This document shows positions 22,440 through 26,499 of a stretch of DNA of 64,000 nt, piece after piece. Position numbers and translations under genes: made by a program. Source of the stretch: Natrinema sp. SYSU A 869 (GTDB taxonomy: Archaea > Halobacteriota > Halobacteria > Halobacteriales > Natrialbaceae). Position 1 is the stretch's first letter. Every line of letters begins with the position of its first letter. The notes under the pieces are model-generated. The model was not told where the DNA came from. It made no database searches and saw only the letters and a program-made list of their open reading frames with translations. The stretch spans positions 930,001 to 994,000 of the forward strand of contig NZ_CP082249.1 in the NCBI RefSeq assembly GCF_019879105.1. The letters are read 5' to 3'.

Positions 22440-22903
22440 TCATCCGGACTCCGCCACTGCAACCACGACGTTCTGGACGTACCGCATACTCGTGGCAATC
22501 GCCATGATTCCGTCCATCAGCGCCTGCTGGGAGGCCTCATCGGGATAGACCCGATACTCTACCTGTACCGTCTCCGCCTCGCGCAACTGGCAGGAGACGC
22601 CTTCCTCGTCGAGAAACGTGTAAACCCCGGCGTCGCCGCCAGCATCGGTCCGACGTACTTGAGCAACTCGCCGCGTCGCTGATCGTCGCGAAGCAGGTTT
22701 TTCGCTCGCTCGGTGTCGAACCCGTTCCGACCGACGATTCGGACCGGCCCGAACTCGTCTTCTTTGATGACATGGACTGGCAACTGCGAGAGTTCGACCT
22801 GAAAATTGAACTCGGTATCCTCGTCTGTGTGAGGGGTTACGTTCCGGATGGCCGTGTCGTCCAGCCAGTGGCGGACCTGCGTCTCACTGATGTGTCTCGT
22901 CAT
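22440..22903 (-). pseudogene. Conserved hypothetical protein, frameshifted
   Basis: The first 93 codons from the ATG at 22903 read as a normal halophilic protein (MTRHISETQVRHWLDDTAI... to LLKYVGPMLAATPG). The frame then turns into an Arg/Ser-rich tail and stops. One added base in the GGGGTTT run at 22622-22628 restores a natural continuation containing TFLDEEGVSCQLREAETVQV and ends at 22440, giving 154 residues. The two parts are clearly one gene. I do not recognise the family with confidence; the mix of helical ends around a beta-rich core resembles small chaperone-like DUF2299-type proteins. Likely a sequence error rather than decay. Confidence 0.7.
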
Positions 22904-23013: not shown

Positions 23014-23898
23014 TTAGTGCTTGTCCGGCATCGTCGAGTGACGTGTCGTCTTGCGCATATCTGCCCGTTTGGAGGGCGGCGGTGCCATCGTGGAGTGGCG
23101 GCTCGGACCGCCCGACGCCGTTCCACGGTCCTCGTCGCCGCCGAGTCCCGATCCCAGAAGTCCCTCATCCTCGTCGTCATCGTCAGTGTCCTCCTCGTCC
23201 GCTGTGTCATCGGCTGTGGCTTCGTCGGCGGCCTCGGCGTCGGCCGTCTCGTCGGCTCCGTCAGTTGCCTCGTTACCGGCGGTACCGGCGCTCGTCGCCT
23301 CGAGTCGCTCTTTGAGCTGCTGGATATCGTCACCGAACTGCTCGAACGAGGACTGCATCGATGATCGAAGCCGATCCCCAAGGTCGTCGGTCGTCTCGTC
23401 CGCCCCCTCACTCTCGGATACGTCCGCCTCGTCACCCGCAGCGTCGTCCGGTTCACCCTCGGCACCCGCCGTCCCGTCGTCCGATTGCGGCCGATCGGCA
23501 TCACCCGCCGATCCGTCGGCCCCGGATTCGGCCCGCTCGCCGATCGTCTCCTGAAGGTCGCCGACGGCACCCTCGAGACTGCCGTTGTCGGCCCGATCGG
23601 CGAGTTTCGCGAGGTGGAGCAATCGCTGGAGGTCCTCGAGGTTCTCCTGCTTGCCGTGAGCGATAGCCTCCGGGATCGAATCTGGTTCGGACCCGTCTTC
23701 GAGGGTATCCAGTCCGACCGCCGCGAGCAATTCGTCGGGGTTGGCCGACTCGAGGAGGTCGCTCGCTTCTTGGGCGGTCTCGAGCAGGTCTTTCTCGTCC
23801 TCGCTATCCGAGTCACTGCCGGATACGATCGACCCGCTGGACGCGTCGGCCTCGTTCAGTACCTCGTGCACTCGATTGTGGAGTTGTGTGTCGCTCAT
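23014..23898 (-). CDS. Hyperacidic protein with basic RHSTM-containing tail
   Basis: A 294-residue protein of unknown function. Residues 1-120 contain helical segments (RVHEVLNEADA; LQRLLHLAKLADRADNG). A long Asp/Glu/Ala-rich stretch follows, with a predicted coiled segment DDIQQLKERLEATSA near residue 200. The last 30 residues are abruptly basic and carry two copies of RHSTM (SRHSTMAPPP and TRHSTMPDKH). It is the last gene of a leftward cassette of four acidic proteins and, like its neighbours, begins MSD. A tail of opposite charge on an acidic protein suggests an interaction or packaging signal, but that is inference. Confidence 0.75.
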   Translation of the reverse strand: MSDTQLHNRVHEVLNEADASSGSIVSGSDSDSEDEKDLLETAQEASDLLESANPDELLAAVGLDTLEDGSEPDSIPEAIAHGKQENLEDLQRLLHLAKLADRADNGSLEGAVGDLQETIGERAESGADGSAGDADRPQSDDGTAGAEGEPDDAAGDEADVSESEGADETTDDLGDRLRSSMQSSFEQFGDDIQQLKERLEATSAGTAGNEATDGADETADAEAADEATADDTADEEDTDDDDEDEGLLGSGLGGDEDRGTASGGPSRHSTMAPPPSKRADMRKTTRHSTMPDKH

Positions 23899-23967
23899 CT
23901 GTGGCTCTCAGGTATCACCGCCGTGTCGTGCGCGATAGTCGGATCGGGAGCGACGGAGTGCAGTCGA

Positions 23968-24885
23968 TTACTCGGCTTCAGCTTCCGTCTCTGACTCCTC
24001 ATCCGAGTCGGAGTCCGACTCCTCGTCCGTTACTGCCTCGATGATCTCGTTGGTCATCTCCTCTCGGCTGAGGTTCGCCTTCACACCGACGTCCTTCGCG
24101 ACTGACTGCAGATCGCTGTAGGACATCACTCCGAGGAAGTCCGTGAGCGTGTCCTTCCGGAGGTCCTCGAGGTCCTCCATGGACGGCTCGTCCTCGCCCT
24201 CTCCGGACGGTTCGGCTTCGTCGGCCGTCTCCTCACCTTCGTCAGCCGATTCTTCAGCTTCGTCGGCCGTCTCTTCGTCTTCTTCGCCACCCCCACCGAC
24301 TGTCTCTTTAGCTTTGCTGGCCGCTCCTTCGACCGATTCTTTGGCTGTACCGGCGGCGTCTTTGACTGACTCTTTGGTGCCCGTTTCGTCGCTTTCGCTG
24401 CCTTCGTCTTCCTGTTCTTCCGTTTCGTCTGCTGGCTCTTCGCCCTCGGATTCTGCCTGCTCCTCGCTCTCGGATTCGTCCTCGTCGGTGTCGTCGCTCT
24501 CGTCGCTTCCGGCGTCGTCGAGGAGTCCCTCGAGACTGCTGCTGTCGGTTACACCTTTCGCCACCGACTCGATCGAGTCGCGGCCCTCCACGTTCGCGAA
24601 CGATTCACGGAGGGCGTCCCGAATCGCCGTCGAGAGATCCGTACGGATCTCATCGAATTCTTTCCCTTCGTCGACGCCTGCGGCGATCGTCTCGTGGACT
24701 TCCCGACCGATGGCCGCGCCGACTTCGTGCCCGAACCGTTCGCCGAACTGGCGACCGACCGCAGCGCCGACCTCGCCGCCGTCGATGCTGTCCTCGATAC
24801 TCCCGTCGCCGAGCATATCGGCGACGTCGAGCTGGTTGCTGACCTCGCTTGCGACCATACTCTTCAGCCCCGATCCGTCACTCAC
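23968..24885 (-). CDS. Acidic protein with glycine-zipper segment and SAP/HeH-like C-terminus
   Basis: A 305-residue protein. Near the N-terminus is a glycine-spaced helix (GGEVGAAVGRQFGERFGHEV) related to that of the next gene upstream. A very acidic linker follows with an internal SVKDAAGTAKESVEGAASKA helix of LEA-like type. The last 60 residues (LTDFLGVMSYSDLQSVAKDV and LSREEMTNEIIEAV) look like a SAP/Rho-N-type helix-extended-loop-helix fold. The GTG at 24885 is preferred to a GTG at 24894 because it gives the MSD start shared by its relatives and is preceded by a strong Shine-Dalgarno sequence. Function unknown. Confidence 0.72.
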   Translation of the reverse strand: MSDGSGLKSMVASEVSNQLDVADMLGDGSIEDSIDGGEVGAAVGRQFGERFGHEVGAAIGREVHETIAAGVDEGKEFDEIRTDLSTAIRDALRESFANVEGRDSIESVAKGVTDSSSLEGLLDDAGSDESDDTDEDESESEEQAESEGEEPADETEEQEDEGSESDETGTKESVKDAAGTAKESVEGAASKAKETVGGGGEEDEETADEAEESADEGEETADEAEPSGEGEDEPSMEDLEDLRKDTLTDFLGVMSYSDLQSVAKDVGVKANLSREEMTNEIIEAVTDEESDSDSDEESETEAEAE

Positions 24886-24888
24886 GAC

Positions 24889-24897
24889 GATCACCTC
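24889..24897 (-). promoter_or_regulatory. Strong Shine-Dalgarno sequence deciding the GTG start at 24885
   Basis: On the minus strand GAGGTGATC is complementary over nine bases to the canonical archaeal 16S rRNA 3' end and ends 3 nt before the GTG at 24885. The alternative GTG at 24892-24894 lies inside this element, so it is unlikely to be the start. Confidence 0.6.
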
Positions 24898-24938
24898 GAG
24901 TCGGTTCGTGGAGCGAGTGTGTTCCCTGAATCACGGTC

Positions 24939-25420
24939 TTATTCCTCGGCTTCGGTCGCCTGTTCCGATTCTTCGTCCGCTGCTTCCTCGTCCTCCGCGT
25001 CCGATTCGGAGTCGTCTTGCGCTTTAGCTTCGGTATCAGTGTCGTCCTCGGATTCGGTGCTGTCTTCGGCCTCGGTGTCTTCCCCAGCCTCGCTTTCTTC
25101 GTCCTCCCTTCAGCGGTCCCTTCGTCTTCCTCGCCTTCCTCGGCGGTTTCTTCTTCGTCTGCTTCGCCTTCTTCGGCCGCTTTGTCCTCCTCGCCGGAAC
25201 TGAGCAGTTCGTCGACGACCATGTTTCCGATCGTCCGCCCGAGAGATTCGCCGATCGCTCGCCCGAGAATCGCTCCGATCTGTCCACCCAACGCCTCTCC
25301 AAGCGGTTTGTCCCCGTCAATCTCACCTTCCCATTTCGTTCCGTCGACCAGTTCCTCGACGTCGATGTTGTCGGAGATCGCCTCGGTATCGATCCGTTGA
25401 GTCAGTGAATCGTCGCTCAT
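24939..25420 (-). pseudogene. Acidic glycine-zipper protein, frameshifted
   Basis: From the ATG at 25420 (MSDDSLTQRIDTEAIS) the protein has a DVEELVDGTKWEGEIDGD block and a glycine zipper, LGGQIGAILGRAIGESLGRT, then an acidic tail. At codon 104 the frame turns into a Lys/Arg/Thr/Pro-rich sequence that runs to 24878. Adding one G to the three-G run at 25106-25108 restores an acidic tail ending ATEAEE with a TAA at 24939 and a length of 160 residues. The basic tail is therefore an artefact of a one-base loss. Its ATG overlaps the previous gene by 4 bases, and the zipper block is paralogous to that of the next gene. Confidence 0.72.
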
Positions 25421-26388
25421 GATGATGCCTCCGCCTGTGACGGCTCTGCCTGTCCGCCGGTCTCTTCATCCTGATCCGGCTCGAGTTGCTCGAGTAGCTG
25501 TTTGAGTATTGCGCTGACGACCGCCGACACGAGTTCCTCGGTCGGGAAACTGGGAACGAGCGCGGCCAACTTCTTTCTCACCCAACTCGCCACCCCCGAC
25601 ACCCCGTTCTTCAGACGCTGTACCGCCGATGAAAGCAGACCGGGGGACTCGTCTTCGCTCTCGGACGCTTCCTCGTCTTCGACGTCTTCCTCGCCCCCGC
25701 CGAAGAGTCCTGTGAGCTTCTCGACGGGCTTGTTCAGCAGGTTCTTGACGAACTTGATCGGCTTACTCAACAGTGACTTCGCCTTGCCAATCATTGCTCC
25801 GGGGCCGTCCAGCAGCCCCGTCACCGCCGACAGCAGATTGCCGAGCAGGTTGTTTCCCCCCGGTCGCGCCGAGACATCCAGCGTCACTGGATCCAGGTTG
25901 ACCTCGAGCCCCAGTAGGTCGAGGAACAGTCCATCGAGGTCGAGGTGGAGGACACCGGATGCCTCGTCTCCCTCGTAGACTTCGTCGGCACCCTCGACGT
26001 GGTACTCGTCTTCTTCCGCCTCGTCTTCTGCAGATTCCGCTTCGCCTTCGGCCTCCTCCTCCTCGGATTCCAATTCTGGTTCCCCCTCCTGTTGCTCGGA
26101 CTCGTCCGCAGATTCGTCAGCGTCGCTTTCCTCGGTGTCAGTTTCCGCTTCCTCGTCCGCTGGTGCGGAGTCTTCTTCGTCTTCCGGCGTCTCTTCGGCG
26201 TCGTCCTCACTCGAGTCTGCCTCCGCGTCCTCGTCTTTCTCTTCCATCTCTGCCTGCCCGCCGTCGGTCAGTATCCGCCGTGACGGTCCGTCCGTCAGCT
26301 CGCCCATTCGTTGACGGCTTGAGGAGCACTCGACCCACTGGAGATCCGACTGCTCCTCGCTGCCGTCAGATGTGGCATCCTCGATCAT
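25417..26388 (-). CDS. Hyperacidic protein with amphipathic C-terminal helices (first gene of the acidic cassette)
   Basis: A 323-residue protein starting MIEDATSDGSEEQSDLQ. Residues about 50-150 are an almost uninterrupted Glu/Asp/Ser/Ala tract. A beta-like VLHLDLDGLFLDLLGLEVNL segment follows, then several amphipathic or hydrophobic helices (LLGNLLSAVTGLLDGPGAMI; IKFVKNLLNKPVEKLTGLFG) and a final helix LVSAVVSAILKQLLEQLEP. The VLHLDLDGLFLDLLGLEVNL segment resembles short hydrophobic repeats seen in haloarchaeal surface or particle-associated proteins, but no family is recognised. It overlaps the next gene by 4 bases and begins 111 bp after the cobalamin operon's last gene. Confidence 0.75.
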   Translation of the reverse strand: MIEDATSDGSEEQSDLQWVECSSSRQRMGELTDGPSRRILTDGGQAEMEEKDEDAEADSSEDDAEETPEDEEDSAPADEEAETDTEESDADESADESEQQEGEPELESEEEEAEGEAESAEDEAEEDEYHVEGADEVYEGDEASGVLHLDLDGLFLDLLGLEVNLDPVTLDVSARPGGNNLLGNLLSAVTGLLDGPGAMIGKAKSLLSKPIKFVKNLLNKPVEKLTGLFGGGEEDVEDEEASESEDESPGLLSSAVQRLKNGVSGVASWVRKKLAALVPSFPTEELVSAVVSAILKQLLEQLEPDQDEETGGQAEPSQAEASS

Positions 26389-26499
26389 TATACGGAAACA
26401 CAGACGAGAGAGAGCGTTGTGGGGGTTGGCCTTGCGTATGCGACTACTCGGCACGGCAGAAAATTACCGGTGACGGGCGACCGTCCCGACGGATCGTCA

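Follow-up and report, generated by a model that had tools for sequence, protein, structure and literature searches.

Background

Haloarchaeal gas vesicles are the reference organelle of archaea and a platform for ultrasound and antigen display, and 14 genes are taken to make up their full complement. Reviews list these 14 haloarchaeal gvp genes, 12 of them in Haloquadratum and Halorubrum vacuolatum, as well as sets of 11 genes without gvpC and gvpDE in species such as Natrinema pellirubrum and Natrialba magadii, which are described there as vesicle-negative and as having no known expression (PMC4390858); a later table prints gvpC for the 11-gene species (PMC9501494). GvpC strengthens the vesicle wall by binding the ribs via 33-residue helical repeats (PMC9994262). 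Loss of GvpI leads to extremely long vesicles, and the protein binds GvpH, GvpL and GvpC (PMC7688916, PMC9501494); long GvpIs, extended at the N-terminus by over 200 residues, were noted in Natrialba magadii and Haloterrigena turkmenica (PMC3403918). The present analysis concerns a cassette of four consecutive minus-strand genes, designated g1 to g4, at positions 26388-23014 of a 64,000-nucleotide stretch of the genome of Natrinema sp. SYSU A 869 (contig NZ_CP082249.1, positions 930,001 to 994,000), the whole of which is referred to as the window. A preliminary description had regarded the undescribed cassette as the best candidate in the window for a new system, possibly a particle, pore or membrane-associated assembly. 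Based on co-occurrence with gvp genes, insertion into gvp operons and a fourth gene predicted to encode a GvpI paralogue, there is little doubt that the cassette belongs to the gas vesicle system, and the notion of a new system had to be abandoned.

Co-occurrence with gas vesicle genes

The sample comprised 293 genomes of the order, in which g1 was recognized with the A1 core profile and GvpA with PF00741; associations were assessed by Fisher test. Homologues of g1 are present in 101 of these genomes and GvpA in 122: 98 possess both, 3 only g1, 24 only gvp and 168 neither (p=3e-50). The corresponding tables read 54/0/3/6 for the window's family alone (p=1e-6) and 44/3/21/162 outside of it (p=2e-27). 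All of these p-values overstate the evidence, the genomes being related and not independent samples; natural losses represent separate cases. Of the three g1-only genomes, one has a weak match (4e-5), another has a split match, and the third is 70% complete. A possible resemblance of the g1 core to motifs of bacterial secreted proteins was considered; within the sampled phylum, g1 was seen in haloarchaea only. A search with one g3 sequence detected g3 in 86 of the 293 genomes.

Loss of the cassette is evident in several genomes devoid of gvp. In one Natrinema genome (G159), the corresponding site holds no more than the N-terminal portion of g1 together with a piece of g3, while in a second one (G055) the flanking genes are present and the cassette is absent. 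Two gvp-free genomes of genus g19 possess the cobalamin locus but no adjoining cassette. In genome G252, gvp and g2-g4 are present and the core of g1 is lost. The cassette is inherited, gained and lost together with the gvp genes.

Linkage to gvp clusters

Genes of gvp clusters are found at most eight genes from g1 in 20 of 57 loci from several families. The window locus is not among these: the gvp cluster of its genome, composed of gvpA-N-O and gvpF-M with its own GvpI and without gvpC (L086), lies about 0.78 Mb from the cassette. Several types of linkage were observed, namely the arrangement gvpA-gvpO-zinc-ribbon-g1-g2-g2'-g3 (L064, L068, L078), a complete g1-g2-g3-g4 block adjoining the gvp cluster (L074, L098, L100), and insertion into the operon in the order gvpF-G-H-g1-g2/g3-gvpI-J (L084, L087, L090, L096, L097). 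Several lineages hence carry g1 and g2 inside the operon that encodes the accessory Gvp complex GvpF-GvpM; g1-g3 do not figure among the 14 gvp genes known from haloarchaea (PMC9501494, PMC4390858). Where g1 is remote from gvp, a copy of GvpI is located at most three genes away in 34 of 37 loci, so that g1-g3 appear to need their own GvpI copy.

The zinc-ribbon protein between gvpO and g1 comprises 112-113 amino acids and has no name (L064:4592-4933, also L068 and L078). In three further gvp clusters (L112, L115, L136), g1 is absent and a g2-like glycine-zipper gene is present; L112 and L136 also contain two gvpO-like genes.

Conserved gene order

The gene following g1 is a homologue of g2/g3 in 55 of 57 distinct g1 loci, a pattern far beyond chance, and an ATGA or GTGA overlap at the g1 stop codon occurs in 38 of the 57; in the window, the 4-base overlap described earlier is the ATGA at 25417-25420 common to g1 and g2. 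Profile searches detected the order g1-g2-g3-g4 again, both at the cobalamin locus and at unrelated sites in other genera and families. Orthologues are therefore tightly syntenic rather than scattered, and the proposal of a functional cassette is borne out.

In the window, the cassette follows genes of the cobalamin locus, i.e. a CbiX-like gene (by reading of its sequence), DUF3209 (E=9e-53) and a gene for a PQQ-repeat protein, which could suggest a chance neighbourhood of acidic low-complexity open reading frames (ORFs) or mere passengers of that locus. This is the least probable of the explanations weighed here, since the cassette order is kept away from the cobalamin locus (L046, L047, L050, L051, L059-L063) and since DUF3209, located two genes upstream of g1 and present in 139 genomes, shows no association with gvp (64/75/58/96, p=0.16). 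A functional link with the cobalamin neighbours was rejected on the same grounds.

The fourth gene and the GvpI family

The lead to gas vesicles came from g4 (23014..23898, minus strand, 294 amino acids), the profile of which matched, in outlying families, a gvp-operon protein at the gvpI position between gvpH and gvpJ. A hidden Markov model (HMM) built from 28 operon-encoded GvpIs recognizes GvpI of Halobacterium (5e-17) and g4 of the window (E=1e-9), with no unrelated match below 1e-3 among all genes searched. An hhalign comparison of the g4 set with the operon-GvpI set yielded E=6e-47, a value inflated by some operon copies having been sorted into the g4 set. The basic tail on the last gene, already noticed in the preliminary description, spans 23017..23103 (minus strand; SRHSTMAPPPSKRADMRKTTRHSTMPDKH); it has the form RHSTMAPPPSKRADM...RHSTMPDK and is conserved. 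C-terminal repeats of S-T-M/V-P type are common to both proteins, with NPAAHSTMP...HSTVP in Halobacterium GvpI and RHSTM...RHSTMP in g4. On account of the HMM match and the common STMP/HSTVP tail, g4 is classified at the sequence level as a GvpI paralogue.

The two proteins differ in charge and position. GvpI of Halobacterium salinarum has an isoelectric point (pI) of 10.8, while g4 is acidic (pI 4.05); long forms of GvpI inside gvp operons likewise have acidic N-terminal parts. GvpI sits between gvpH and gvpJ, whereas g4 of the window sits after g3 and exists besides the cluster's own GvpI (L086). In annotated public plasmids, GvpI homologues at the gvpI position are labelled "hypothetical protein" (L079:11806-12765, L080:11962-12873, L083:8944-9717, L084:8770-9723). 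None of the four cassette proteins scored above cut-off against Pfam and NCBIfam. The earlier designation as undescribed genes of unknown function fails for g4, a member of the GvpI family, and stands for g1-g3, for which no description was found in the open-access literature.

Relation to GvpC

Multi-repeat Halo_GVPC (PF05465) was found in eight genomes, all of which possess gvp and none of which possesses g1, while g1 is present in 98 of the 114 other gvp-bearing genomes (p=8e-7); three genomes with single marginal repeats (E ~5e-4), one of which (G069) has g1, were not counted as having GvpC. Exchange between GvpC and the cassette is observed inside families f4, f5 and f12 and even within a single genus (g46; gvpC in G064, cassette in G056). 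The genome of the window itself has no match to PF05465. As regards the gvpC printed in the later table (PMC9501494), the genome data here agree instead with its absence, since the clusters that were read do not contain it. Genome G285, which belongs to the window's family and lacks the cassette, has, flanked by gvpA and gvpN, a gene for a GvpC-like protein (7e-6 in unfiltered blastp).

Tandem helical repeats may be common to GvpC and g1, and recognisable GvpC and the cassette are mutually exclusive in their occurrence. Unlike GvpC (PF05465 in haloarchaea; 33-residue repeats in cyanobacteria), g1 has repeats of 11 or 18 rather than 32-33 residues, shows no sequence homology to it and is not located between gvpA and gvpN.

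At L117, in a genome without cassette, the GvpC-like protein encoded between gvpA and gvpN comprises 416 amino acids and is missed by Pfam. Its product ends in a SAP/HeH-like segment, where GvpC of Halobacterium is zinc-finger-like. Homology between the end of Halobacterium GvpC and that of g3 is not supported, the former looking zinc-finger-like.

The g1 protein

The g1 gene (25417..26388, minus strand) encodes a hyperacidic protein of 323 amino acids composed of an N-terminal acidic stretch, an invariant core, putative amphipathic repeats and a C-terminal helix. The core (25774..25971, minus strand; A1 match E=3.6e-29) reads VLHLDLDGLFLDLLGLEVNLxPVTLDVSAxPGxNNLLGNLLSAVxGLLDG and has 16 invariant columns among 16 sequences. 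The putatively amphipathic 11-residue repeats (LLSKPIKFVKN/LLNKPVEKLTG; 25693..25806, minus strand) were recognized by autocorrelation of the segments after the core, with z=3.3 in the window and 4.3-8.3 in relatives from Natrialbaceae; in L064 and L094, the period is 18 instead of 11 (z ~12.5).

A GvpA-like hairpin, as in the rib proteins GvpA/J/M, was ruled out for the core (hhalign probability 0.2%). A tblastn search of plasmids with the g1 core and g2 gave no match, to which the low-complexity filter may have contributed. In some lineages, g1 reaches 770-840 amino acids by insertion of carboxypeptidase-regulatory/Ig-like domains before the core (L064:4985-7303).

The glycine-zipper proteins g2 and g3

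The genes g2 (24939..25420) and g3 (23968..24894), both on the minus strand, encode paralogous glycine-zipper proteins, g2 with an acidic tail. Iterated profiles of g2 and of g3 each match both proteins with E ~1e-17 to 1e-32 at most fetched loci, and the "DV..L.DG" lead as well as the GxxxG helix are conserved in relatives, in agreement with the paralogous block proposed at the outset. The zipper helix of g2 (LGEALGGQIGAILGRAIGESLGRTIGNMVVDELL) is located at 25202..25303 (minus strand), that of g3, with three invariant glycines, at 24670..24780 (minus strand). For a 131-residue portion of g3, AlphaFold2 predicts helices at residues 39-75 and 80-101, the first being the 37-residue GxxxG helix, in a simple helix arrangement with block means of the predicted local distance difference test (pLDDT) of 78-91 across residues 41-90. 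Structure prediction accordingly supports a helix pair in the zipper region of g3, and yielded no reliable fold for g1.

Spacing of GxxxG type is also found in Gly-zipper_Omp (PF13488), to which g2 scores 13.6 bits, below the gathering cut-off of 25. In contrast to that family, the zipper helices of g2 and g3 contain many charged residues, and a signal peptide or membrane segment is not evident by eye. Due to these charges, the helices more probably form a soluble bundle than a pore in a membrane. The existence of glycine zippers and amphipathic helices had prompted the idea of a pore, a particle or another membrane-associated assembly independent of gas vesicles; given the charge-rich helices, the GvpI-like g4, the co-occurrence with gvp and the insertion into gvp operons, this is very improbable. 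Of the earlier assembly claim, affiliation with an assembly holds, the assembly being the known gas vesicle rather than a membrane structure or pore. The cassette proteins are probably parts of the gas vesicle that have so far been missing from its inventory.

The C-terminal 48 residues of g3 (24031..24174, minus strand; A3 profile, E=1.3e-26) form a conserved module with the consensus DxxxLRxETLxxFLxxMSYxDLQSxAKxVGVKANLSREEM. No Pfam family, SAP included, matches this module; the SAP/HeH-like end ascribed to g3 thus persists as a conserved module, devoid of a formal SAP assignment. In small-genome haloarchaea without gvp, modules of this type are fused to the end of proteins read as ribosomal protein S3 and as Hsp20-like (L131:6955-7551, L132:6236-7330, L133:6223-7170, L134:6323-7441, L135:5903-6880), which suggests a general module, the presence of which alone is no sign of DNA binding.

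Hyperacidity of the cassette proteins is confirmed for g1, g3, g4 and residues 1-104 of g2, which have a pI of about 4.05 and 28-33% aspartate plus glutamate (window median 19%). In the window, g2 is broken by a one-base frame shift near 25090; the called ORF end at 24878 lies in an incorrect frame, the stop codon of the acidic frame being TAA at 24939. Breaks beside runs of G occur in g2 (25080-25100) and in the small gene 22559-22903, which seems to change frame at about 22620. Since relatives of g2 keep a single acidic frame open and the second break also lies near a G run, both are likely assembly errors. As judged from relatives, the true start of g3 is probably GTG at 24885 and not 24894.

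Upstream of g1, a 27-nt element (CATACGCAAGGCCAACCCCCACAACGC; 26414..26440, minus strand) is conserved in a by-eye comparison across loci of Natrialbaceae. It has a single match in its own genome when up to three mismatches are allowed, and represents a possible promoter or untranslated leader element. A promoter element common to g1 and gvpA/gvpF was looked for and not found.

Proposed role in the gas vesicle

On balance, the analysis leans towards the cassette encoding auxiliary gas vesicle proteins of haloarchaea with a gvpC-less gvp cluster, which would form a GvpC-like reinforcing and length-setting coat outside the GvpA shell. In such a coat, g1 would run along the outer GvpA ribs via amphipathic helices with a short period of 11 or 18 residues, and g2 and g3 would pair through their glycine-zipper helices, thereby oligomerising or bridging g1. 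The GvpI-like g4 may, as GvpI does, contact GvpH/GvpL and limit elongation, while the long acidic stretches might maintain solubility of the coat at molar salt concentrations. The whole cassette would substitute for GvpC in reinforcement and length control; most simply, g1-g3 and g4 would take over, for clusters devoid of gvpC, the functions that GvpC and GvpI have in Halobacterium.

Several observations, besides the relatedness of the sampled genomes, weigh against such a coat. No homology of g1 to GvpC or GvpA and no Pfam match for g1 were detected, the hydrophobic moment of its repeats exceeds the 95% shuffle level in the window copy only, and its AlphaFold2 model (pLDDT 61) has no dependable fold. 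Both g1 and a recognised GvpC are absent from some 13-16 gvp-positive genomes, so that neither protein is obligatory; a few of these genomes have a g2-like gene in the gvp cluster (L112, L115, L136). Moreover, Natrinema pellirubrum and relatives whose clusters lack gvpC were scored vesicle-negative (PMC4390858).

This last point, together with the retention of the clusters and, along with them, of the cassette, would also agree with a GvpA-based compartment other than a buoyancy gas vesicle. Such a compartment is improbable: full sets of GvpA and GvpF-M are kept, also in the genome of the window (L086), and expression may simply require particular conditions. An auxiliary function at another step of gas vesicle biology, i.e. 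in nucleation or in a chaperone or anchoring complex (e.g. tethering, clustering or partitioning of vesicles, with the end of g3 binding nucleic acid), would account for the same co-occurrence and linkage data. GvpI and GvpH are members of the accessory complex (PMC7688916), and the fusions of the g3 module to S3-like and Hsp20-like proteins point to a general binding module. The mutual exclusion with GvpC argues for a GvpC-related role, however, and g3 has no Pfam SAP match; this alternative is considered less likely than the coat.

Implications for haloarchaeal gas vesicles

In the sampled genomes, g1 occurs in about 80% of those bearing gvp (98/122), normally with homologues of g2/g3, and in none with a recognisable multi-repeat GvpC. 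Tentatively, most gvp-bearing haloarchaea may form gas vesicles of a second class that does not depend on GvpC, the wall of which would be reinforced and sized by g1-g3 and a GvpI paralogue. If so, omission of the cassette from current gas vesicle models and from heterologous gvp constructs could be relevant to why these clusters are thought to be silent or vesicle-negative. Should these proteins be parts of the shell, they would reveal the substitute for GvpC, bear on the vesicle-negative appearance of gvpC-less species (PMC4390858) and provide new proteins for tuning vesicle stiffness.

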